Source: a virus | Reading direction: 5' to 3' (one strand) | IMG/VR virus record: IMGVR_UViG_3300011115_000949 | Coordinates: 1 to 64,000 of that record | DNA: 64,000 nt | Shown: positions 9,075 to 30,744 of the stretch, piece by piece | Layout of the letters: each line of letters opens with the position of its first letter | Numbering within the stretch: position 1 is the stretch's first letter | Made by a program: the position numbers and the translations under genes | Notes under the pieces: generated by a model | Databases searched by the model: none | What the model was told of the DNA's origin: nothing | Seen by the model: only the letters and a program-made list of their open reading frames with translations

Positions 9075-10995
<1,921 letters not shown>

Positions 10996-15460: not shown

Positions 15461-16093
15461 TTATTTCCAATTCATTTTTTGTGCGTGTATTCCAAAATGA
15501 CCATTACTGTCTAATAATGTTTCTTGAGGAAAGTGAGCAAAATTAATTTGTTTTTTAATTAACCATTCTGTTAAACCAAATGGTCCAACAGGTTCTAGTT
15601 TGTGGGGTATTAGTTCCTTTGTTTTGTGATAATGTTCACCGTCGTTTTTTAAATCGGTTCGGTTTAAACAATATTCAATACAATCTTTAAACATGTTAGG
15701 TTTACTAATGATGAATGGATCGTCCATTAAAGGACCAATTCCACTTTCATATACATAACTGTTTGACACTGATGTTAAGATAATATCTTTTTGGGGGAAG
15801 CCAAAGTCATACATTATCTTTTGAAAACGAACTTTCCACGTTATGTCAAAGTCAGTGTATATTCCTCCAAATTTATCTAATATAAGGTACTTTAAAAAAT
15901 TACACTTGTTTATAAATGTAAGTTTAGACCATTGCTCTACTAAATTGTAGTGCTCAAGTAGTTGTAAACAATCTTTATTTTTCCAAACTAAACAGTTAAA
16001 ATTTGAATTTAACCGAGCACATTTCTGATAATTAAGAACATAAGGTTGAGGGACTACTTCGTTATTTCCTATCCAAATAAAATGGACTGTCAC
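15461..16093 (-). CDS. GT32-like sugar transferase (DXD motif)
   Basis: The protein has 210 residues. HFIWIGNNEVVPQPY at the N-terminus and FGGIYTDFDITW (75-86) with the D-x-D at 81-83 are typical of the Gly_transf_sug/GT32 family. The start is GTG, overlapping the upstream TGA as GTGA. It stands apart from the main glycan block, together with a GT2 enzyme at 17560. The acceptor is unknown. Confidence 0.8.
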   Translation of the reverse strand: MTVHFIWIGNNEVVPQPYVLNYQKCARLNSNFNCLVWKNKDCLQLLEHYNLVEQWSKLTFINKCNFLKYLILDKFGGIYTDFDITWKVRFQKIMYDFGFPQKDIILTSVSNSYVYESGIGPLMDDPFIISKPNMFKDCIEYCLNRTDLKNDGEHYHKTKELIPHKLEPVGPFGLTEWLIKKQINFAHFPQETLLDSNGHFGIHAQKMNWK

Positions 16094-16572
16094 TCAAAAA
16101 ACTGTTTTAGGTTTGGTTTAAAGTAATTTATGTTCTTCATTACCTTACGATCCCTAGTTCTGTATACAATCCAGTAGTCGCCTATTTTTTCATAATGACA
16201 AGGTTCACCTTGTTCTTTACTTCGAACTTCCACAGTTTGTATAGCTTCTTCTTCAGTTGAACAAGCTTTAGACATGTTTGATGCTTGAACCTCTTGATAT
16301 GCTGGCCATATCTTATCTTTAAGGCCATGTAGCATAGCACCGTTCCCAAGGGAAACATAAGTAATATCACAAAGAGCATCCAAAACCTCCACGATGTTTC
16401 CTGTTTCGCAAGCGTGTTTATATTCCTCAAGTTCTTCAAGGATAAAATTGTATACAAACATCCATTCTTTTTCATTAGGAATGGTAGGTGTGTAGTTGTT
16501 TGGTTTGCCCATTGTGGCATTGAATGTCTCTACTTCGGAGACAAACGGTACGTAATTTTCTTTGTTTTCCAT
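16090..16572 (-). CDS. MazG-like nucleotide pyrophosphohydrolase
   Basis: The 160-residue protein has the all-alpha NTP pyrophosphatase metal site: EELEE (46-50) and EVLDALCD (62-69), the E-x-x-E...E-x-x-D pattern of the MazG/PRA-PH superfamily. The C-terminal 60 residues (YEKIGDYWIVYRTRDRKV) are an extra segment found in several phage members. Proposed roles are cleaning up or adjusting NTP pools; the substrate is unknown. It fits the nucleotide metabolism genes nearby. Confidence 0.72.
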   Translation of the reverse strand: MENKENYVPFVSEVETFNATMGKPNNYTPTIPNEKEWMFVYNFILEELEEYKHACETGNIVEVLDALCDITYVSLGNGAMLHGLKDKIWPAYQEVQASNMSKACSTEEEAIQTVEVRSKEQGEPCHYEKIGDYWIVYRTRDRKVMKNINYFKPNLKQFFE

Positions 16573-19429: not shown

Positions 19430-20545
19430 TTAATTTGATAAAGGTGCTTTAATTGTTGGGTGTGATTGATAGTTTTCTAATGTAAATTGTTCAATATTAT
19501 ATTCAGAAATATCATCCATGTCTCCAATATAATGGTTTGTTTCATCAAAAATATCAATAATTAATTTAGGTAGTTCAAATGGTGTTCGTTCAATTTGTTC
19601 TTTAGCTTGTTCAATATGATTTGAATATAAATGTACATCACCTAAGTTCCCTATTAATTGGTCAGGAACCATGTTAACTTCTTTAGCAATGATTTCAAGT
19701 AGTAAACCATAAGAAGCAATATTAAATGGTAAACCTAAAAATGTATCTACTGAGCGTTGATTCCACATTAAAGAGATTGCTCTGGTTGGGATATTTAATT
19801 CGGTGAAATATTGATGTATATTAGGGACTTTAATATCAAGAGGAACCATAGTAGAGTCTAATCTTTCAATATACATCACATACCTTTCTTCAAAACTCAA
19901 CTCTCTTGTATAAACTTGAAATCCATAATGACAAGGTGGAAGAACCATTTGGTCTAATTCACCTACATTCCAAGCTGAAACCATTAATCTTCTACTATCG
20001 GGATTTGTTTTGAGTTCGTTGATTAGGTTTTGGATTTGGTCTATGTGACCATAGTAACTATATAAAGTTTCTTTTTTTCCTTGATACGCGTAATCTTCTC
20101 TTTTAATTGATTCCCATTTTCTCCATTGTTTACCGTATATCGGTCCTAATTCACCCCACTTCTTTGCAAACTCATCATCTGTTTTGATTTTGTTGATGAA
20201 TTCTTCTTTTGTTTTTGGTAAGTCAATTGCTGGAATAAGTTGTAAATTATTCGCAATTATTTTTTTTGAGTAGTTAGCCCAAGCATCACCATTCCAAATA
20301 TGACAACCATTATCAACTAAATACTTAATGTTAGTATCACCTCTTAAGAACCAAAGTAATTCAGTAACCATTGTTTTCCAAGCCATTTTTTTAGTTGTGA
20401 GTAATGGAAACCCATCTTTCATGTTATGACGGATTTGTCTTCCAAATACTGAAATAGTACCAGTACCAGTGCGGTCTTGTTTTGTAACTCCATTATCTAA
20501 AATGTCTTGTAGTAGTGCTTGATATTGTTTATCTAGGTTGTTCAT
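19430..20545 (-). CDS. thyA: Thymidylate synthase ThyA
   Basis: The protein has 371 residues, longer than the 264-residue E. coli enzyme because of an insertion at about 95-170. The catalytic cysteine is C205 in VLPPCHYGFQ, preceded by DSRRLMVSAWN and followed by the conserved LPFNIASYGLLL and GDVHLYSNH segments. It methylates dUMP to dTMP using methylene-tetrahydrofolate. It lies in the same operon as FolE and other nucleotide genes. Confidence 0.96.
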   Translation of the reverse strand: MNNLDKQYQALLQDILDNGVTKQDRTGTGTISVFGRQIRHNMKDGFPLLTTKKMAWKTMVTELLWFLRGDTNIKYLVDNGCHIWNGDAWANYSKKIIANNLQLIPAIDLPKTKEEFINKIKTDDEFAKKWGELGPIYGKQWRKWESIKREDYAYQGKKETLYSYYGHIDQIQNLINELKTNPDSRRLMVSAWNVGELDQMVLPPCHYGFQVYTRELSFEERYVMYIERLDSTMVPLDIKVPNIHQYFTELNIPTRAISLMWNQRSVDTFLGLPFNIASYGLLLEIIAKEVNMVPDQLIGNLGDVHLYSNHIEQAKEQIERTPFELPKLIIDIFDETNHYIGDMDDISEYNIEQFTLENYQSHPTIKAPLSN

Positions 20546-21065: not shown

Positions 21066-21701
21066 TCAAAACTCCTTTCCATTCTTTGCTATAGCATGTA
21101 AAAATTCTTCTCTAATCATGTTGTTAGGTTCCATAAACACACCACTAAATTTATTAGTAGTCATAGTTGATGTAGGGTGTTTAATACCACGATTTGAACA
21201 ACACATATGTTTAGATGCAATACTAACCGCTACTGATCCACATTCTAATTTTCTTGCTAGAAAATCATGTATTTGTTGTGTAAGTGATTCTTGCATCTGA
21301 GGACGACGAGCAAACCAATCTACAACACGATTTAATTTGGATAATCCTACTACTTTATCTTTAGGTACGTATGCTACTGAGGCATAACCTGTAAATGGTA
21401 AGTTGTGGTGAGCACAAAGTGATACCACAGGGATACCTGTTTGAATAACTACACCTGTATAATTTTCTTCATTTGGAAATACAGTCATAGATGGTTCATC
21501 AGATATAGATCCTATAACCAAATCTTTTAACCATGCTTTTGCTACACGGCGGGGTGTATCAATTGTTTGAGGATCCTGTGTATAATCGAATCCCATTGAC
21601 TTTAAAAAATTACCGTAATGTTTAGATGCGGTTTTAATCATCTTTTCTACCTCTTTAGGTGTGCGAGGTTGGTTTTCGTTTGCTTTGTTTATGTAATTCA
21701 T
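21066..21701 (-). CDS. folE: GTP cyclohydrolase I FolE
   Basis: The protein has 211 residues. SLCAHHNLPF (95-103) and KHMCCSNRGI (164-173) supply the zinc ligands (C96, H99, C167) and the catalytic region. It converts GTP to dihydroneopterin triphosphate, the first step of both folate and 7-deazaguanine synthesis. With QueD, QueE, QueC and DpdA nearby, the second use is the likely one here. Confidence 0.95.
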   Translation of the reverse strand: MNYINKANENQPRTPKEVEKMIKTASKHYGNFLKSMGFDYTQDPQTIDTPRRVAKAWLKDLVIGSISDEPSMTVFPNEENYTGVVIQTGIPVVSLCAHHNLPFTGYASVAYVPKDKVVGLSKLNRVVDWFARRPQMQESLTQQIHDFLARKLECGSVAVSIASKHMCCSNRGIKHPTSTMTTNKFSGVFMEPNNMIREEFLHAIAKNGKEF

Positions 21702-21725
21702 ACTGTAAATGTAAAATTGTTTTTT

Positions 21726-22205
21726 CTATTCTTCAAGTGTAAATGGTAAATTTCGATTAAAGCCTTTAGAGTCATCTAAACCATAACCATATACAAAACT
21801 ACCCTCAGCTAATTCAATACCATAAATCAAATCGGGGTGATCTGATCCGATGCGTTTGAATAGTGCTACAGGAATAACTTTTTTAGGTTCATGTTTAGAT
21901 AAATGTTTGATTAGGTATTTTAATGTTTTACCTGAATCGTAAATATCATCTATTAGATATACTATTTTGTCTTTGATATCTATTTCAATATCTTTTGTTA
22001 ATTTAAGTTTACCCTGTCTAATTCCGTTATAGGATTTTACTCTGATAAAGTCTATTTTAGCTTCAACACAATCTATGTTTTTAATTAAGTCTGAAAAGAA
22101 CATAAATGCCCCATTCAATACACAAATAAAAACTGCGTGTTGTTGAAAACCTATTTCCTTAGAAATGTTTTTAATACTCTGTCCAAGCTGCTCCTGAGTC
22201 GTCAT
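21726..22205 (-). CDS. hpt: Hypoxanthine-type phosphoribosyltransferase
   Basis: The 159-residue protein shows the PRPP-binding loop YLIDDIYDSGKTL (83-94) and the upstream VLNGAFMFFSDL, typical of HPRT (hypoxanthine/guanine phosphoribosyltransferase). It would recycle purine bases released from degraded host DNA. It overlaps the thioredoxin gene by 35 bases. Confidence 0.85.
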   Translation of the reverse strand: MTTQEQLGQSIKNISKEIGFQQHAVFICVLNGAFMFFSDLIKNIDCVEAKIDFIRVKSYNGIRQGKLKLTKDIEIDIKDKIVYLIDDIYDSGKTLKYLIKHLSKHEPKKVIPVALFKRIGSDHPDLIYGIELAEGSFVYGYGLDDSKGFNRNLPFTLEE

Positions 22206-22446
22206 TGTCGTTTATGTATTCTTCTATTGATCTTCCACCAGATAATTTTTCTAGTATTTCTTCGTTTTCACCTACTATAATCATTGTGGGTAAAAATTCA
22301 ATATCTAATTTATCAAAAATGTCACTGTTTTCTTCATTGTCTTCCATCCAAATAACGTTGTTAGTTTTTTCAAAACGTTTAATTAATGGTTTTATTTGTT
22401 GACATGCACCACAATGGCTACCATAAAAAAATATAAAGTTTTTCAT
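22171..22446 (-). CDS. Thioredoxin-like protein (CGAC active site)
   Basis: The start chosen is ATG at 22446 (MKNFIFFYGSHCGACQQ). The upstream in-frame start at 22470 lies inside the preceding gene and adds residues unlike the family. C12-G-A-C15 is the redox site, FLPTMIIV provides the cis-proline. It could reduce the phage ribonucleotide reductase (C-terminal CISC) or other partners. Confidence 0.75.
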   Translation of the reverse strand: MKNFIFFYGSHCGACQQIKPLIKRFEKTNNVIWMEDNEENSDIFDKLDIEFLPTMIIVGENEEILEKLSGGRSIEEYINDNDDSGAAWTEY

Positions 22447-22447
22447 A

Positions 22448-23230
22448 TTATACTCCTCGTTTAGTATCAAATGCGATTATGTGTTCACGACCTGTAAAAT
22501 TGTATCCGTTTTCAGTACAAAAATCAATTACCATAGGATAAACTCGAACTAATTCATCTCTGTTATCTCCTGGAGGCATGATCCATGTTTTGTTTTTAGG
22601 GATATTCATTTCAATTCTAAATGCTTCTATTTCATCCCATATTTCGGGCATTTCAATAGGGTTACAAACAGGTTTAAAATGGTAGTCTTTGTGGTATGCT
22701 AAAGATTGTTTGATTGCTTCTTTATTTAAACGAAGTTTTTCGTGTTGAAGAATCATATCTTCACCTACAACAGAACCCTTAGGTGTAAGTATACCTAATT
22801 CAGGAATTGAATTTGAAAATTTAGGAGATAAAGATATTAAATCAATAGGATAATCTGTTTCAATAAAATGACTACCCTCAGTTTCAATTGTAATTACAAT
22901 GCCTCGTTCGTGAGCAAAGTGTGTTAATTCGTTTACTAGGTTAGGGTGCATTGTTGGACTACCACCTGTTAACATCATTTCTTTAATATCAGGTCTTTCA
23001 TCATACATTTTAATAATGTCATTAAATGAAAATCCTCCCTTTTCAGGGTGTATACTTGTGTACCAAGAATCACACCATCCACCTTCACCAAACCAGCACC
23101 TGTGAGTACAACCAGTTGTACGAATAGCTACTGTTGGGAATCCGTTACGAGATCCTTCACTCTGAACACAATAGTAGAGTTCTACAATTGGTAATTTTTT
23201 GTCGTAATCAGTTAGACGATTTGGTTTCAT
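22448..23230 (-). CDS. queE: 7-carboxy-7-deazaguanine synthase QueE
   Basis: The protein has 260 residues. It is a radical SAM enzyme: RTTGCTHRC then GGWCDSWYT places the cluster cysteines at C41, C45 and C53. The spacing is C-x3-C-x7-C, with five extra residues (FGEGG) before the last cysteine compared with the usual C-x3-C-x2-C. The SAM-binding GGEP is GGSP here (89-92). It turns 6-carboxytetrahydropterin into 7-carboxy-7-deazaguanine, between QueD and QueC in the pathway. Confidence 0.92.
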   Translation of the reverse strand: MKPNRLTDYDKKLPIVELYYCVQSEGSRNGFPTVAIRTTGCTHRCWFGEGGWCDSWYTSIHPEKGGFSFNDIIKMYDERPDIKEMMLTGGSPTMHPNLVNELTHFAHERGIVITIETEGSHFIETDYPIDLISLSPKFSNSIPELGILTPKGSVVGEDMILQHEKLRLNKEAIKQSLAYHKDYHFKPVCNPIEMPEIWDEIEAFRIEMNIPKNKTWIMPPGDNRDELVRVYPMVIDFCTENGYNFTGREHIIAFDTKRGV

Positions 23231-23280
23231 AACAATAATTTATTTTAATATTTCCGAATGTGGTAGTGTATGTCCAATAA

Positions 23281-23742
23281 TTATTCTCCATAGCTAGCAC
23301 TATTTCTTTCATGTTCATATACTTCTACTTTAGTAGCTTTAACTCTACCTTCAGTTTCTACTTTTAAAAAGTCATTAATAATTTTATACAAGTATTGAGC
23401 AAAACGTTCACACCCTGTAGCATCTAAAATTCGTAATTGAATTATACCATCTTCATCCATTTGTTTAAAGTGAGGTAAATATGGATCATCTTGAGCAACA
23501 ATTGTAGTATGATCTAAAAGATATGTAAAATAGTCTTTTGGGGACATACCTGCAATTTGAGTTTTAGCACGTTTCATACCTCCAAAATCCCAAACCCAAT
23601 TACGTTCATCAAGTTCACCTTCAAACCATACTCTAAATGATACAGCATAACCATGTAAAAACTTACAATGAGTACTTTCTGCTTTCCATTGACGGAAACA
23701 TGTACTGAATCCGTCAAATAATTTTGTTGATTGAAATTTCAT
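23281..23742 (-). CDS. queD: 6-carboxytetrahydropterin synthase QueD, altered metal site
   Basis: The start is ATG at 23742, overlapping the TGA of the 51-residue gene as ATGA. A longer frame to 23802 would cover that gene. The 153-residue protein keeps the catalytic CKFLHG region (C26, H30), LDHTTI (D77/H78) and the C-terminal E in EVYEHERN. The usual zinc triad H-x(n)-H-x-H is changed: the third ligand is Y32 (HGY instead of HGH), and the first position is within FSTCFRQW with no histidine. A QueD subfamily of this type may exist, so activity cannot be excluded. It converts dihydroneopterin triphosphate to 6-carboxytetrahydropterin. Confidence 0.85.
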   Translation of the reverse strand: MKFQSTKLFDGFSTCFRQWKAESTHCKFLHGYAVSFRVWFEGELDERNWVWDFGGMKRAKTQIAGMSPKDYFTYLLDHTTIVAQDDPYLPHFKQMDEDGIIQLRILDATGCERFAQYLYKIINDFLKVETEGRVKATKVEVYEHERNSASYGE

Positions 23743-23894
23743 ACTAATTCTTCTAATATTCCTATTGATTCGCTTAATGCAAGAACTATAACTGCTCCCC
23801 ATATGTTAAATGGTAACAATATATATCCCATAATACGAATTCCAGATTTAATTAAACTAACAATTAAATGTTTTTTGGGATCTGGGTGTTGCAT
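23739..23894 (-). CDS. 51-residue membrane protein in the que operon
   Basis: From ATG at 23894 the frame reads MQHPDPKKHLIVSLIKSGI, then RIMGYILLPFNIWGAVIVLAL and ESIGILEELV. It ends with TGA at 23739 overlapping the QueD ATG, and begins 1 base after the thioredoxin stop. The hydrophobic centre predicts one or two membrane passes. The tight spacing and start/stop overlap make it a real gene; its function is unknown. Confidence 0.7.
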   Translation of the reverse strand: MQHPDPKKHLIVSLIKSGIRIMGYILLPFNIWGAVIVLALSESIGILEELV

Positions 23895-23895
23895 A

Positions 23896-24147
23896 TTATC
23901 CTATTATTAATTCTTTAACTTTATTTTCAGGTTGAGAACCTACTAAACGTTTAATTTCGTTTCCGTTTTCTAATACAATTAAAGTGGGAACACTTTTAAC
24001 ATTGTATTGTTCTACTAAACTAACGTCATAATCAGTGTCAATATTTGCTAATTTAACACCAACTTGTTTGGATACAGATTCAACAACCGGTTTAAACGAT
24101 TGACATGCTGTACACCACTTTGCAGTAAAAAAGATTACTTGTTTCAT
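23896..24147 (-). CDS. Thioredoxin (WCTAC active site)
   Basis: The 83-residue protein is a compact thioredoxin: TAKWCTACQSF (C12, C15) and the cis-proline VKSVPTLIV. It differs from the second one at 22171 and both lie in the que operon. They may supply electrons to NrdAB or to steps of the deazaguanine pathway; this is inferred. Confidence 0.85.
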   Translation of the reverse strand: MKQVIFFTAKWCTACQSFKPVVESVSKQVGVKLANIDTDYDVSLVEQYNVKSVPTLIVLENGNEIKRLVGSQPENKVKELIIG

Positions 24148-24148
24148 A

Positions 24149-25051
24149 TTATTTATTTTTATGTTGTTCTAATATTCTATTTGTATGTTCTACTACTATT
24201 TCCCAACTAACGGGTCCTGTTTCGTTTGCATATTCTACTGGATCAGGACGACCTAGTTTTATAAATGCTTCTATACGTTCTACTGATGATGCTGATTTGT
24301 AATCTGAGTACCATTTGTAGTATCCTTGATTTATTAGTCCAACATTCTTTATTGTACCTCCATCATTAGGACCTACTTCAATACAAATTGGTTTGTATGA
24401 TGTGTTAGTACGTTTGTATACTTCATCAAAATCAACACCTAATGTTTCACAACATTTTAAACCATCTTCTAAAATAGAAAATTTATTTCCTTCCATATAT
24501 GGAGCATAAAAATCTACCTTTTCACTATTCCAATTTCCAATTTTAAAAGCATGTAAATCTGCTTGTCTAAATTCTTCAGTTGTGTCGGGGTAAATAGTAT
24601 GGTCACCACTATGCAGACCTAAAGCTATAATACATTCAGTATTCTTTTGTTCAGCAATTGATAAAGCTACTGCTTGAATAATAGAACTAAATATTTTATT
24701 ACGATTAGGTACTACTGTAGCTTTCATATTTTCTTCAGCGTAGTGACCTTCAGGAACTTCATCCCCACCTGTTACAAGTGCTGAATTAAGTAATTGGCTC
24801 AATCCATCAAGTTTAATTACTTGGTAAGTGATTGGGAAATATTTACCAAATTCATCCCCTCTGTGATTTGATTCACTATAATTACTATTCAAATAATTAA
24901 CTAATTCTTTAGCACGTTCTAATTCTACATTATGTTTTTGACCATAATCAAATGATAATGCTGTAACTTCATAGCCGTTGGCAAGTAGATGAAGCAATAA
25001 TGTGGAGCTGTCCATTCCTCCACTTAATGATAATACTGCTTGTTTGTTCAT
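24149..25051 (-). CDS. queC: 7-cyano-7-deazaguanine synthase QueC without its zinc site
   Basis: The protein has 300 residues (E. coli about 230). The ATP-pyrophosphatase loop SGGMDSS (10-16) and VVPNRNKIF (114-122) are intact, and the C-terminal block VERIEAFIKLGRPDP aligns with the family. All four zinc cysteines of QueC appear replaced. The S-C-Y position is T-S-Y (S219), and the C-x-x-C-x-x-C position reads DYKSASS (D251, S254, S257). About 30 extra residues separate the two parts. The family makes preQ0 from carboxy-deazaguanine via the amide ADG with two rounds of ATP and ammonia. The consequence of losing zinc is unknown; an enzyme that stops at ADG is one possibility. Confidence 0.85.
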   Translation of the reverse strand: MNKQAVLSLSGGMDSSTLLLHLLANGYEVTALSFDYGQKHNVELERAKELVNYLNSNYSESNHRGDEFGKYFPITYQVIKLDGLSQLLNSALVTGGDEVPEGHYAEENMKATVVPNRNKIFSSIIQAVALSIAEQKNTECIIALGLHSGDHTIYPDTTEEFRQADLHAFKIGNWNSEKVDFYAPYMEGNKFSILEDGLKCCETLGVDFDEVYKRTNTSYKPICIEVGPNDGGTIKNVGLINQGYYKWYSDYKSASSVERIEAFIKLGRPDPVEYANETGPVSWEIVVEHTNRILEQHKNK

Positions 25052-25052
25052 A

Positions 25053-25268
25053 TTATAATGGAAAATTGTCTATTGGTAATGAATTAAAATATTCCTGTAG
25101 GAATGATTTTTTATACAGGATAACTTTACCTGTATATTTTCGATTTGAGATATCTCTCAATTGGTACGGTTGGCTTCGAAGCTTACATGCTTCAAATACT
25201 TCTTTACCTAGGGTTGTACCTGCGGGTTTTCCTAGGTAGTCAAATAGTGATAAAAATTCTTCGTTCAT
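25053..25268 (-). CDS. Hypothetical protein between dpdA and queC
   Basis: The start is ATG at 25268 (MNEEFLSLFDYLGKPAG), since the extended frame to 25310 overlaps dpdA with unlikely residues. The 71-residue protein is not recognised. Position between the transglycosylase-like gene and queC suggests a link to the modification pathway, but nothing in the sequence shows it. Confidence 0.6.
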   Translation of the reverse strand: MNEEFLSLFDYLGKPAGTTLGKEVFEACKLRSQPYQLRDISNRKYTGKVILYKKSFLQEYFNSLPIDNFPL

Positions 25269-25281
25269 ATTGTAAATGTAA

Positions 25282-26097
25282 TTAATTTTCTTTTGGAGGC
25301 CAATTTTCATGTAAAAAGGCGTGGTTTATTTGTCTAAATTTTAAAATATTGTTGCTTAATCTTCCTTCTGTAAGATATTCTTTATGCATTACCTCGTCTA
25401 TTTTTACTGTAGGTTTATGTTTTAAACCATACATGTTGTAATGCGTTCCCTCAACTGTTGCCATGATTGGGTTAGACGTATCAATTGATTCAATGAAATG
25501 CATCCCATAATACCAGTTAAATTCTTGAGGTAAAGCACAACCTAATAAATGTACTCTATCAAATTTACTTATAATTCCTATGCTATGCATTTTGGTTATG
25601 GTTTGAATACGACCTAATGCTTTACCAAAATTAGGATTTGGATGAGGACATACGTCATTGTAATAAGATGCTCCATAACTGAATGCTATCTTTTTGTATC
25701 CTAAATCTTTGTATGTTTGATAACATTCTACTGCTTCATAGTAAGAAGCAGCTTGGACTACAGCTACTTTAGTTACTCCTTCAGGTAATTCTATTTTAGA
25801 CCATTCACGAGCATTTACTATTGATCTTGTTTTATCTTCCCAAACATCCGGGACAATAAATTCGTTTGGTTTTAATTCGTTAATCCAATACATCAAACGT
25901 TTAGTATCATAGGCGGTACCTAACTCGTGTAATGAGTTATCCATTATGATATAACGTCCTAATGCTTTAGATTTGTAGAAAAAATGTTTGTATTGTTCCT
26001 CTTTATCTAATAAATGAGGTAAACAATAATCGTAATCGTTAAATTCTATGCTTTTATTTAATAAAGCTAAAGGAACTTCATGTGAAACTTTTGTCAT
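25282..26097 (-). CDS. dpdA: DpdA-like DNA guanine transglycosylase (TGT superfamily)
   Basis: The protein has 271 residues. It has the tRNA-guanine transglycosylase fold signs: IIMDNSLHELG (D53, the DSGG-type aspartate), PDVWEDKTRS (83-92), VVQAASYYEAV (113-123), HLLGCALP (183-190) and the putative nucleophile D206 in IESIDTSNP. Phage members of this family (DpdA) exchange guanine in DNA for a 7-deazaguanine precursor. Together with FolE, QueD, QueE and QueC the window encodes the full route. The base inserted depends on what QueC releases. The assignment is by motif and context; sequence is too divergent for certainty. Confidence 0.78.
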   Translation of the reverse strand: MTKVSHEVPLALLNKSIEFNDYDYCLPHLLDKEEQYKHFFYKSKALGRYIIMDNSLHELGTAYDTKRLMYWINELKPNEFIVPDVWEDKTRSIVNAREWSKIELPEGVTKVAVVQAASYYEAVECYQTYKDLGYKKIAFSYGASYYNDVCPHPNPNFGKALGRIQTITKMHSIGIISKFDRVHLLGCALPQEFNWYYGMHFIESIDTSNPIMATVEGTHYNMYGLKHKPTVKIDEVMHKEYLTEGRLSNNILKFRQINHAFLHENWPPKEN

Positions 26098-26144: not shown

Positions 26145-27155
26145 TTAGTTGTAAGTTATAGTATCATCATCTCTTTTTCTTCTAAAAATAGGAGGAACAA
26201 ATGAAAATGATTCTGTTGGGGGTGGGATAGGTTTTTCTTCTGGTTGACGAAGTGTAGTAACATCAGGAGGCAATGTTGGGTTTGGTCGTTCATTGTATAT
26301 AGGTTCTTCCTGAGGTACCACGTCAATAGGTTTTTCATTGTACATAGCTAGCTGCTCTGGTTTTCTGAGTTGAGCAAAAGCAAAGTTTGCTGCTATTACC
26401 AATGCAATAGCTAAAGGGTCAAATACAAATATAATGATTAATAAAAACCAATTAATAATTTTATCCATTGGATAACCAGTTAGTTTAGCAATGTATTTTA
26501 AAGGACCTAACTCGCCTGCTAATTCAGCGTTTGATTCTTTTTCTAATTTTTGTTCAGATAAAACAGCTATAGTAGAATCTAAAGTATTAATTTTGTTAGA
26601 TAATTTTTCTTCATCTTTAAGAGCATATTCAAGTTGTTTTTCATATGCTTTTCTATTTGCTGAAGACGTAGTGGTTAGGATATTTCCTTGTTTATCTTTA
26701 TATGTTTGGTTATTGTTTCCTAATGCTGAGCGAAGTTGAGATATACTTTGTTTTGTTTGTTGAAGTTGATCTGCTGTGAATGTTTTATCTTCAGTTTTAA
26801 GTTTAATTTTATTATCTATTAAAGCAATTTCTTTATCTACAACACCCGATTTATTTGCTGTATCTTGATAACCACTACTTAAGTAGCCATAAATACCTGC
26901 TGAGGTAATGACCATTAAAATTATAAGTGCTAGTGTTAGATAGAATCGTAATGCTATCCCTACTTTTTTCCAATATTGATAAAGTAAAGATGCTACTACT
27001 AGTTTAGCTACTTCAAGTGAAGATGCCATCCATATAACTGCTGTTTCTACACCTGCAAATAATTTTGCTAAACCAGTAACACTATAAAAGGCAGCTGCTG
27101 CACTAATAGACAGTGCAGACAGTGCTATAAATGTTGGTAATAAGTATTTTTTCAT
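26145..27155 (-). CDS. Polytopic membrane protein with central coiled coil
   Basis: The 336-residue protein has hydrophobic helices at about 5-25, 36-60, 72-92 and 234-258. A coiled-coil, glutamine/lysine-rich region at about 100-215 lies between helices 3 and 4 and probably faces one compartment. The C-terminal 70 residues are proline-rich. No family is recognised. It might be an envelope or superinfection protein; this is conjecture. Confidence 0.6.
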   Translation of the reverse strand: MKKYLLPTFIALSALSISAAAAFYSVTGLAKLFAGVETAVIWMASSLEVAKLVVASLLYQYWKKVGIALRFYLTLALIILMVITSAGIYGYLSSGYQDTANKSGVVDKEIALIDNKIKLKTEDKTFTADQLQQTKQSISQLRSALGNNNQTYKDKQGNILTTTSSANRKAYEKQLEYALKDEEKLSNKINTLDSTIAVLSEQKLEKESNAELAGELGPLKYIAKLTGYPMDKIINWFLLIIIFVFDPLAIALVIAANFAFAQLRKPEQLAMYNEKPIDVVPQEEPIYNERPNPTLPPDVTTLRQPEEKPIPPPTESFSFVPPIFRRKRDDDTITYN

Positions 27156-27161
27156 TTATTG

Positions 27162-28055
27162 TTAGGATAAAGCAGTTTTTACTGTATCTGTAAAATCTTT
27201 AAAGTCATCATCATCTGCTAACATAAATTTATATTTATCTGCTTCTTGTTTTGAGTATTTAAAATCCTCTCCTTCTTCACCATAATATACCCCATAAGTA
27301 AAATTAGTATATGGATCTTTATATTCACTTTCTTTTTCACCAGTTGATCCTTTAGAAACATATACTTTTAAATTGGAAAATATATCACGCATTGTTCCTC
27401 CATAAAACATTTTATCTGCATCAGCATCAAAATCCATATTAACACCCATGTCTTGCATTTTATTAGTATATTTGTCTCCTCCACTTTTAGTAGTTCTTTC
27501 AAAATCTTGCATACCTTGATATTCACTCCATAAAGCCCACATTAATTCAGGTTCAGTTTTTACACCTTCATCTAATCCCATGTCCCTTAATTGACTATTA
27601 CTTTGAACATAATAAATATTAAAAGGTAATATAACTGTATCTGGGTTATTTGATTTGGGTTGGTTAATTGGAGTTGATTTGCTTTCTATTACTTTAACAT
27701 CCCCGTCAGGAAGAAATGTGATAGTATATTCAAAATCATAATCTTTAGAAGGAGGAATAGTACTCCATTTATCTCTATTAGTAAAAAACCATTTTGAATA
27801 ATCAGGATCCATTTTTCCAAAATGTTTAACAAATATTTCAGATTGAAGAATTTGATTTTGTTCATCATTAATAGATTGAGGAATTTGATTCGTTTTAAAT
27901 TTAATTTTTCCTACAGGTTTATTATACACAGTTTGTTTAATAAAATTCGGAGCTATTTTAGAATCATCAGAATAAAAAGGACCTTTAGTTTGATTCTCAG
28001 TTAGTACCTTATTTATTTCCTCTTTAATAATTTGTTTGAGTTGAGATTTTTTCAT
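27162..28055 (-). CDS. Unknown protein with the N-terminal amphipathic helix motif
   Basis: The protein has 297 residues. Its first 18 residues (MKKSQLKQIIKEEINKVL) match the start of the 85-residue protein at 12580 (M-K-x-S-x-L-x-Q-I/L-I-x-E-E), followed by TEN, a possible L-x-E type prohead protease site. The remaining 270 residues are acidic, with no recognised domain. It precedes NrdA in the genome and has the ATATTTAT motif downstream of its stop region rather than upstream. A capsid-internal protein is a possibility. Confidence 0.55.
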   Translation of the reverse strand: MKKSQLKQIIKEEINKVLTENQTKGPFYSDDSKIAPNFIKQTVYNKPVGKIKFKTNQIPQSINDEQNQILQSEIFVKHFGKMDPDYSKWFFTNRDKWSTIPPSKDYDFEYTITFLPDGDVKVIESKSTPINQPKSNNPDTVILPFNIYYVQSNSQLRDMGLDEGVKTEPELMWALWSEYQGMQDFERTTKSGGDKYTNKMQDMGVNMDFDADADKMFYGGTMRDIFSNLKVYVSKGSTGEKESEYKDPYTNFTYGVYYGEEGEDFKYSKQEADKYKFMLADDDDFKDFTDTVKTALS

Positions 28056-28075: not shown

Positions 28076-29797
28076 TTAACCCTCACATGAAATGCACTCT
28101 GATAAACGTTGCAAATTATCGCCACGCAATACACTTTCAGTACGAAGATAATATAATGTTTTAATACCTTGCTTCCATGCTTCCTTATGTACCTGACTAA
28201 TCCACTTTGGTGTGTCATTAGGGTCAAAACATAAGTTTAATGAAATTGCTTGGTCAACGTATTTTTGTCTGATACCATTTTGTTTTACAATTTCTAATTG
28301 ATTAATTTCTTTAAATGTTAAAAATACTTCTTTTTCTTCATCTGAAAGAATATAATTAGGTAATCCATAAACAGAACCTTGATCTTTTAAAATTTGTTCC
28401 CAAACGCTATCAATGTTGTATCCTTTTTTCTCAAGTAATTCTTCTAGTATTTTATTTCGTTTAATAAAAACACCTTTTGCTGTTTTTAAATTATAAACGT
28501 TTGCAGGAATAGGTTCGATTGAAGGCGATACACCACCTGAAATGTGAGCGTTTGATACTGTAGGTGCAGGTGCTAAATGGTGGGTATGTCTTAAACCTGT
28601 ACCTTTACACCATTCAGGTTCGCCGTATAATTCTGCTTGTGCTTTAGATGCTTTTAAAGTTTCTTTTTCAATAAATTCAAACATTAATCTTGTATAAGCA
28701 TTTGCTTGAATACCCACAAATGGGATTCCTTTTGATTGTAAAAACGTATGCCAACCTAAAACACCTAACCCAATTGCTCTACCTTTAATAGCTGAGCGAA
28801 CTGTGTTTTCCATGAATTTAATGTTTTTAGCTCTATCTATAAATTCTTGAAGTACACCTTCTAGGAACCAACATGATAATTCAGGTAATGTCATTCCATT
28901 TTCAAATTTATATTCTTTCCATTCATCCCAACGAGCTAAGTTAAGTGAAGATAAACAACAAATAAATGAATGTAATTCATCTGTGTACAAAGCAATTTCA
29001 GTACAAATGTTAGTCATTGATACATGTAAATTGTTGTTTTTGTATGCTTGAGGACTTGCATTGTTAACATTGTCTTCAAACATAATATAGGGTTCACCTG
29101 TTTCAAGACGTGTTTTTAATATTTCACCCCACAATTTTAATGCTTTAGGATCTTTTTCTTCAAGTTTATTCATGAAAACATCATCTACAACTACACACTG
29201 GTGTAAGTTAAGACATTGACGGTTAACATCTCCTTTAGGACGACGGATACCTAAAAATTCTTCAATATCAGGATGGTGAATGCTTAAATTAACTGAAGCT
29301 GCTCCTCTACGTACTGAACCTTGGTTAGTAGCTAAAATAGTTGAATCATATATTTTACACCAAGGAACTACACCTTCAGATACACCATTGTCTCTAATTG
29401 CTTTTCCTCTTCCACGAATACGAGATACACCAATTCCTACTCCACCACCTTGAGATGATAGACGCATTAGTTCTGAGTTTGCATCTGCGATGCCTTCAAT
29501 ACTATCACCTACATCAATTCCAAAACATGAAATAGGCATTCCACGTTCAGTTCCCATGTTTGATAAAACAGGAGAAGCTAAACATAACCAGTTTTTAACT
29601 ATTGCTTCATAGAAAAACGGTTGTAAATCTTTTCTTCTTAAGCGGCGAGCAGCAAATTTGCTTACTCGTTTATAAGCATCAAAAACATCTTCATCAGGTA
29701 GTAAATACCCTTTTGAAATCATACTTACTGCGATGTCATCCATCCATTCAGGATATGACTTTCCTTTAATCCAATTTGTTGTGTCTACTGTGCTCAT
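28076..29797 (-). CDS. nrdA: Class I ribonucleotide reductase, large subunit
   Basis: The start is ATG at 29797, overlapping the NrdB TGA as ATGA; an alternative ATG at 29809 would add four residues inside nrdB. The 573-residue protein has the catalytic cysteine positions (PISCFGI, the N-x-C-x-E loop NICTEI, and ICCLSSLNL), the SQGGGVGIGVSRI and GSVRRGAASVNL segments, and the redox tail CISCEG. It is shorter than E. coli NrdA because the N-terminal ATP cone is missing, so allosteric shut-off by dATP is probably lost. This is common in phage enzymes and favours dNTP supply. Confidence 0.93.
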   Translation of the reverse strand: MSTVDTTNWIKGKSYPEWMDDIAVSMISKGYLLPDEDVFDAYKRVSKFAARRLRRKDLQPFFYEAIVKNWLCLASPVLSNMGTERGMPISCFGIDVGDSIEGIADANSELMRLSSQGGGVGIGVSRIRGRGKAIRDNGVSEGVVPWCKIYDSTILATNQGSVRRGAASVNLSIHHPDIEEFLGIRRPKGDVNRQCLNLHQCVVVDDVFMNKLEEKDPKALKLWGEILKTRLETGEPYIMFEDNVNNASPQAYKNNNLHVSMTNICTEIALYTDELHSFICCLSSLNLARWDEWKEYKFENGMTLPELSCWFLEGVLQEFIDRAKNIKFMENTVRSAIKGRAIGLGVLGWHTFLQSKGIPFVGIQANAYTRLMFEFIEKETLKASKAQAELYGEPEWCKGTGLRHTHHLAPAPTVSNAHISGGVSPSIEPIPANVYNLKTAKGVFIKRNKILEELLEKKGYNIDSVWEQILKDQGSVYGLPNYILSDEEKEVFLTFKEINQLEIVKQNGIRQKYVDQAISLNLCFDPNDTPKWISQVHKEAWKQGIKTLYYLRTESVLRGDNLQRLSECISCEG

Positions 29798-30744
29798 AAA
29801 TCTGACCAATCTGCTGTTGATTTTGCATAACTTGTTACTCTACCTGCAAAGAAATCTTGATGTGTTTTACCACTTGTTAAATGACCAAACCATTCCATTT
29901 GCTTTAATAAATTAGGATCAATGTCATTATAAATTGCTTGATATCCTAATTCAACTAACTTTTCGTTTGCTCTTGCTTTAATAAATGCTTTTAATTGTTC
30001 TTTATTTAAACCATCAATATCACCCATTTCAAATGCTTTTTCAATAAAATCAAATTCTAATTTTACTGATAATTCACATGCTTCAACTATTTTAGTTCTT
30101 AATGTTGGGGTGTTTAATTCAGGTTGTTCTTCTAATAATTTTCTAAATAACCAACATCCTGCTTTTGAATGTAATGATTCATCACGTACACTCCACTCAA
30201 CAATCTGACCTGTACCTTTCATTAAATTACGCAATTGAAAACTCATTAATACAGCAAATGATGAAAATAAATTTACACCTTCAGTAAATGCTGAAAATAT
30301 AGCTAATGATAGTGCTTTTTCTTCTATTGTAGTGCCAGGTACTTCAATTAAACGTTCTATTTTATTTTTAGATGTTTCATCTTCCATAAAAGCAGCAAAA
30401 TCATCTAAACCTAATTCTTCATTTAAACGAGCATATGCTTCAGCATGTATTGATTCAAAATCAGCAAATACACGAGCCATTGCTTGTACTTCTGGTTTTG
30501 GAAACCATACTGATACTTTTGTTGACCAATAGTCGTTAACATGTACTTCTGTTTGAGCAAATGATTTTAATATGTTTCCAATTAAATTCTTTTCAGGTTC
30601 GCTTAATTTTAATTTCCAATCGTTTAAATCAGAAGCTAATGGTACTTCATCTGCTAACCAATGTGCTCTGTGTTGGTCTTTGTAAAAATTAAACGCGTCT
30701 TGATATTCAAACGGTTTATAATAAATTCGTGGTTCGGTTATCAT
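29794..30744 (-). CDS. nrdB: Class I ribonucleotide reductase, small subunit
   Basis: The protein has 316 residues. Diiron ligands and the radical tyrosine are in place: E66 (AQTEVH, glutamate where E. coli has aspartate), ESIHAEAY (E97, H100, Y104), E155 (FTEGVN) and RDESLH (E189, H192). The C-terminus ending in WSDL is the peptide that docks on NrdA. It provides the tyrosyl radical for NrdA, directly downstream. Confidence 0.94.
   Translation of the reverse strand: MITEPRIYYKPFEYQDAFNFYKDQHRAHWLADEVPLASDLNDWKLKLSEPEKNLIGNILKSFAQTEVHVNDYWSTKVSVWFPKPEVQAMARVFADFESIHAEAYARLNEELGLDDFAAFMEDETSKNKIERLIEVPGTTIEEKALSLAIFSAFTEGVNLFSSFAVLMSFQLRNLMKGTGQIVEWSVRDESLHSKAGCWLFRKLLEEQPELNTPTLRTKIVEACELSVKLEFDFIEKAFEMGDIDGLNKEQLKAFIKARANEKLVELGYQAIYNDIDPNLLKQMEWFGHLTSGKTHQDFFAGRVTSYAKSTADWSDL

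Follow-up and report, generated by a model that had tools for sequence, protein, structure and literature searches.

FolE, QueD, QueE and QueC make 7-cyano-7-deazaguanine (preQ0) by way of 7-carboxy-7-deazaguanine (CDG) and 7-amido-7-deazaguanine (ADG), and DpdA enzymes swap the base in DNA. In the Campylobacter phages CP220 and CPt10 (Firehammervirus), 100% of deoxyguanosine (dG) is replaced by the ADG deoxynucleoside (dADG), and NCTC12673-type phages (Fletchervirus) use deoxyinosine (dI; PMC8306585); Campylobacter phages were listed as lacking DpdA by Hutinet et al. 2019 (PMC6884629). Here, we describe an operon predicted to direct such a base exchange, located at 21066–26097 of a 64,000-nucleotide stretch of viral DNA (hereafter the window) that spans positions 1 to 64,000 of the IMG/VR record IMGVR_UViG_3300011115_000949. 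At 99,848 bases, the record is a fragmentary virus contig, and further genes of this phage may lie outside it. It encodes a gp23 capsid protein (E = 4e-75), gp32 (E = 5e-14), UvsX, a tail sheath protein and a DNA polymerase, which bears out the T4-like identity proposed by an earlier reading of the same stretch (the original prediction).

The closest named phage, Flavobacterium phage vB_FspM_immuto (immuto), possesses counterparts of the window DpdA-like protein (35.5% identity), QueE (66%) and QueC (59%), together with a phosphoribosyltransferase (PRT), MazG and the 71-residue protein that we call U71. It differs in carrying a QueF-like gene and a formyltransferase, neither of which was found in the window phage, in its PRT type, and in the placement of queC and U71 ~15 kb from dpdA. 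Firehammervirus, likewise T4-like, encodes a homologous transglycosylase (CPT_0056; 36–37% identity) along with QueD, QueE and QueC; there, however, the genes are scattered, QueC retains all zinc cysteines, and QueE has another cysteine layout. The core base-exchange system is already known. Three testable parts would be new: a small adaptor-like family whose tail resembles that of single-stranded DNA-binding protein (SSB), a probable guanine-recycling enzyme, and forms of QueC and QueD that lack the usual zinc ligands. The class of predicted guanine-replacing phages is also extended to many uncultured T4-like phages (155 relatives in one scan).

The operon and its candidate transglycosylase

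The operon lies on the minus strand. From 26097 to 21066, its transcription order is DpdA-like protein, U71, QueC, thioredoxin, a 51-residue membrane protein, QueD, QueE, a second thioredoxin-like open reading frame (ORF), a hypoxanthine-guanine phosphoribosyltransferase (HGPRT)-like PRT, and FolE; adjacent genes in this interval overlap or sit at most ~50 bases apart. Because a comparable gene order recurs in dozens of IMG/VR contigs, the clustering is not attributable to chance. Promoter and terminator scans returned no excess over shuffled sequence. Family matches were obtained for the GTP cyclohydrolase I FolE (21066–21701; PF01227, E = 5e-51; phrog_2197, E = 1e-62), the radical S-adenosylmethionine (SAM) CDG synthase QueE (22448–23230; phrog_2076, E = 5e-49), the carboxytetrahydropterin synthase-like QueD (23281–23742, likely starting at residue 21 of a 173-residue ORF; phrog_2389, E = 3e-40; PF01242, E = 4e-15), and the 300-residue QueC-like 7-deazaguanine synthase (24149–25051; PF06508, E = 5e-36). 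Together with the fold of the DpdA-like product, these matches place the four enzymes and a transglycosylase on one strand at the position that the original prediction had given. Its gene list was right in what it named and incomplete in what it left out, namely the HGPRT-like gene (21726–22205) and the second thioredoxin-like ORF (~22171–22446).

The 271-residue DpdA-like protein (25282–26097) returned no Pfam or NCBIfam match, and its PHROG matches were solely to families of unknown function (phrog_19058, E = 5e-40). An AlphaFold (AF2) model computed from a 46-row alignment (predicted local distance difference test score 90, predicted template modeling score 0.88) shows the TIM barrel of the tRNA-guanine transglycosylase (TGT) fold. 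The best 50 Foldseek matches in the PDB were all TGTs or the DNA preQ0 insertase DpdA (7ui4), with a best E = 6e-9, a probability of 1.00 and query-normalized template modeling scores of 0.53–0.63, and the nearest named homologue carries a DpdA annotation; a better fit to a non-transglycosylase family, named in the original prediction as the outcome that would speak against it, was not what these comparisons returned. A profile search added a weak match to 7ui4 over an HLLG...SID stretch (E = 0.048), in which the region around D206 aligns with the SID of 7ui4. Across the 46 rows of the alignment, and also in immuto and CP220, residues D53, D84, Q115 and D206 do not vary; their equivalents recur in phiST gp042, a remote relative (hhalign 97.4%). 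By motif order, we take these four residues to correspond to TGT D102, D156, Q203 and D280.

A search of annotated phages with the window transglycosylase matched solely the immuto group and 14 Campylobacter records; the dI-type Fletchervirus NCTC12673, present in the searched collection, gave no match. Starting from the CP220 transglycosylase added CC_R7 and, weakly, Bacillus phages. The CC_R7 protein (PQ092953.1 103396–104115) is much more divergent (27%), is annotated as hypothetical and lies close behind a QueC gene; the remote Bacillus matches (27–28%; BSTP5/8/10/12 and BSP7) stand under unrelated annotations. Judged indirectly, from its homology to proteins of phages with 100% dADG, the window transglycosylase is likely a member of DpdA3, a subfamily reportedly named by Cui et al. 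2023 (NAR) and said to allow complete guanine replacement. As that subfamily has reportedly been described, the link between Firehammervirus and DpdA is probably not new. A DpdA-type enzyme in Firehammervirus nevertheless gains independent support here, contrary to the listing by Hutinet et al. 2019.

Taken together, a model for the operon emerges in which FolE, QueD and QueE would convert GTP to CDG, the QueC lacking a zinc site would carry CDG to ADG and/or preQ0, and the DpdA-like enzyme would excise guanine from DNA through a covalent aspartate intermediate and insert the new base, which could be preQ0 or ADG. This agrees with the likely function set out in the original prediction. With catalysis deduced from sequence and a structural model, we assign a probability of roughly 0.85 to the reading that the operon makes a 7-deazaguanine base and exchanges it into phage DNA.

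U71, thioredoxin and the phosphoribosyltransferase

The small genes were compared across relatives in 51 lineages; complete relatives, defined as those with FolE, QueE, QueD and QueC all in range, comprise 37 loci in 26 lineages. The original prediction had suggested that a thioredoxin, a 51-residue membrane protein and a 71-residue protein interleaved among the Que genes could be accessory parts. This holds for two of the three, the thioredoxin and U71 being conserved members. The 83-residue thioredoxin (23896–24147; PF00085, E = 3e-18) occurs within the module in every complete lineage (26/26), whereas the membrane protein (23739–23894) is kept in 16 of 51 lineages and in only 11 of the 26 complete modules. 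The second thioredoxin-like protein (~22171–22446) matches PF00085 with E = 7e-10. PRTs come in two types, one or the other being present in 15 of the 26 complete lineages. The window copy (21726–22205) carries the phosphoribosyl pyrophosphate loop motif DDIYDSGKT and matches PF00156 (E = 2e-19), HGPRT structures in the PDB (4qri_A, E = 1e-23) and TIGR01203 (E = 7e-31, which is below that model's cut-off). That it returns guanine ejected from DNA to GMP for re-use is a proposal to which we give even odds. A gene for a MazG/PRA-PH-like nucleotide pyrophosphohydrolase lies in the module of 18 of the 26 complete lineages and is displaced in the window (16090–16572, minus strand; PF01503, E = 9e-9; phrog_671, E = 4e-26); in relatives, immuto and phiST, it belongs to the modification module, mostly close to folE.

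U71 (25053–25268) occurs in 36 of 51 lineages and 21 of the 26 complete modules, usually directly downstream of dpdA. Neither U71 nor its relatives retrieved anything convincing from Pfam or PHROGs, and by sequence they constitute a new family. The best match of a fold search had E = 0.4, which identifies no confident relative; winged-helix proteins account for several of the weak matches. The relatives mostly end in DDLPF or similar. An [ILVF]PF ending was found in 42 of 54 U71 ORFs as compared to 70 of 10,109 ORFs overall, a count in which many loci are related and do not represent independent events. Endings of the same kind, DDLPF and DDFPF, close the SSB of two Flavobacteriales metagenome-assembled genomes (MAGs), and the E. 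coli SSB hexapeptide DDDIPF is known to engage partner proteins (PMC5872125). No Pfam match to the oligonucleotide-binding-fold domain of SSB was found among U71 relatives. The record itself yielded no bacterial SSB (PF00436); it encodes a gp32-like SSB without an LPF tail.

U71 may aid access of the transglycosylase to DNA; its SSB-like tail could direct this to sites of replication. That it recruits the transglycosylase to DNA is, on these data, a doubtful proposition, and several observations count against it: the window U71 ends in a degraded tail, DNFPL; the U71 of immuto is tailless and encoded close to queC, not dpdA; and some contigs with U71 are devoid of dpdA. Since the window and immuto copies depart in this manner, the tail is not essential in every member. 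A still more extended scheme would couple whole-genome guanine exchange to replication: i) U71 would act as a DNA-binding adaptor, its tail mimicking that of SSB and guiding the transglycosylase to DNA that is nascent or single-stranded, ii) the PRT would return guanine by way of GMP and GTP to FolE, and iii) QueC and QueD would operate zinc-free. As a whole, this scheme is unlikely.

Alternatively, the PRT, thioredoxin and U71 may be unrelated to base exchange and serve nucleotide metabolism, sharing nothing but the operon. Genes for ribonucleotide reductase (RNR; 28076–30744) and ThyA (19430–20545) flank the module, and thioredoxin is a normal partner of RNR, which it may serve here. The recurrence of thioredoxin and U71 among complete modules argues otherwise, as does a reciprocal search started from U71, in which 62 of 78 further loci carried module genes in their flanks; this proportion is biased upward by a seed alignment drawn from module loci, and some of the contigs overlap earlier ones. 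We consider this alternative possible without favoring it.

Directly upstream of dpdA (26145–28055) lie genes for two proteins of 336 and 297 residues without Pfam matches. The first appears membrane-anchored, and 20 of the 51 lineages have a similar protein encoded upstream of dpdA.

Predicted extent of guanine replacement

Returning to the predicted exchange of guanine for a 7-deazaguanine, we next consider how much of the DNA would be altered. As the transglycosylase is homologous to proteins of Firehammervirus, most or all guanines are probably replaced; near-total replacement is an extrapolation by homology that we hold to be probable. The low identity to the Firehammervirus protein counts against it, as total replacement may not carry over at this distance. 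Alternatively, modification might be confined to a minor fraction of the guanines in the window phage, as in most phages with DpdA1 or DpdA2; many 7-deazaguanine phages are reported to have low levels, such as MED16 with 0.13% of G (PMC8306585). The grouping of the transglycosylase with the fully replacing Firehammervirus proteins makes this improbable. Further, hhalign gave no match to the transglycosylases of phiSM or Sonali (Prob 0.1), though single sequences were compared and the evidence is weak, the comparison with the KVP40 protein being likewise uninformative; and a guanine-recycling PRT would be most sensible at high turnover.

That the cluster serves instead to boost queuosine in host tRNA, with preQ0 supplied for tRNA and the transglycosylase acting on tRNA like TGT, is very unlikely: the fold is common to TGTs and the Que enzymes of the phage are similar to those in queuosine-making cells, but the TGT family model (PF01702) had no match in the record or six relatives while matching in 14/14 control genomes, a search for immuto-type QueF in the record and six relatives, run without a positive control, was also negative, and the homologues belong to phages with modified DNA. 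The contigs of several relatives measure 150–166 kb, so the record in which QueF was sought may lack at least a third of the genome.

Zinc sites of QueC and QueD

The QueC signature comprises SGGxDS, YxQxHxxE, VPxRN, YPDC and the zinc motif C(x)8CxxCxxC, with Tyr189 essential (PMC13329287). The first three motifs and the Tyr189 position are common to canonical QueC (cluster 1 of PF06508, PMC13329287) and the window protein, and they are kept, with the tyrosine in a TSY context, in all 47 QueC sequences of the clade. In contrast, the zinc motif of canonical QueC is absent from the window QueC and from every clade sequence (0/47), all four zinc cysteines being gone; CGxCxxC is replaced by DYKSASS, and the zinc-site region now reads SDYKSASSVER. 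Zinc cysteines are present in QueC of CP220, phiSM, CAjan, KVP40, Sonali and HCTV-1.

The clade QueD has lost two of three expected zinc histidines, the first aligning with a non-histidine residue and the third with tyrosine. The resulting HGY in place of HGH is found in 63/63 clade QueD sequences and also in immuto, phiSM and phiST. We take the zinc histidines to be H16, H31 and H33 of E. coli QueD. In QueE, a CX3CX7C motif occupies the place of the CX3CX2C typical of radical SAM enzymes; the CX3CX7C form is conserved in the clade and present in nearly all aligned relatives, three of which have one extra residue.

The missing zinc ligands suggest that QueC and QueD may work without metal. Two points weigh against a functional, zinc-free QueC: according to PMC13329287, canonical QueC requires zinc, and the window protein reads YPDT where YPDC is found in 43 of 47 clade sequences. 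A scan of prokaryote genomes recovered the zinc-less QueC in Cysteiniphilum, Facilibium, two Thiotrichales and marine group II archaea. In seven Cysteiniphilum-type bacterial genomes (drafts), the zinc-less form is the only full-length QueC and the HGY form the only QueD, and QueF and QueA are present. As sole full-length copies in genomes that keep QueF and QueA, the variant enzymes probably still make preQ0, and they appear to support the queuosine pathway of living bacteria. The same genomes led us to reject zinc loss in QueC as a phage invention. QueC zinc loss as a switch to ADG-only synthesis was rejected as well, since these QueF- and QueA-bearing genomes share it and the ADG phage CP220 keeps its zinc cysteines. 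In a QueC tree, the bacterial sequences nest inside the phage clade, which tentatively suggests phage-to-cell transfer, given the rooting and the long outgroup branches.

Several further observations concern these cellular loci. In Cysteiniphilum, Facilibium and Thiotrichales (loci L099–L109), a phage-type queC adjoins queE and queD, as if a bacterial queuosine pathway had been displaced by one from a phage. In marine group II archaeal loci, among them L114, L115 and L116, the QueC frame continues into MsrB-like sequence (DSGCGWPAF), a possible QueC-MsrB fusion. The module also occurs on contigs binned as bacterial (L095; L097, a Pelagibacter MAG; L098 and L106, Flavobacteriales MAGs), which are probably misbinned phage contigs. 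Elsewhere in the window, a GroEL-like chaperonin is encoded at 9075–10709 (phrog_5725, E = 2e-146).

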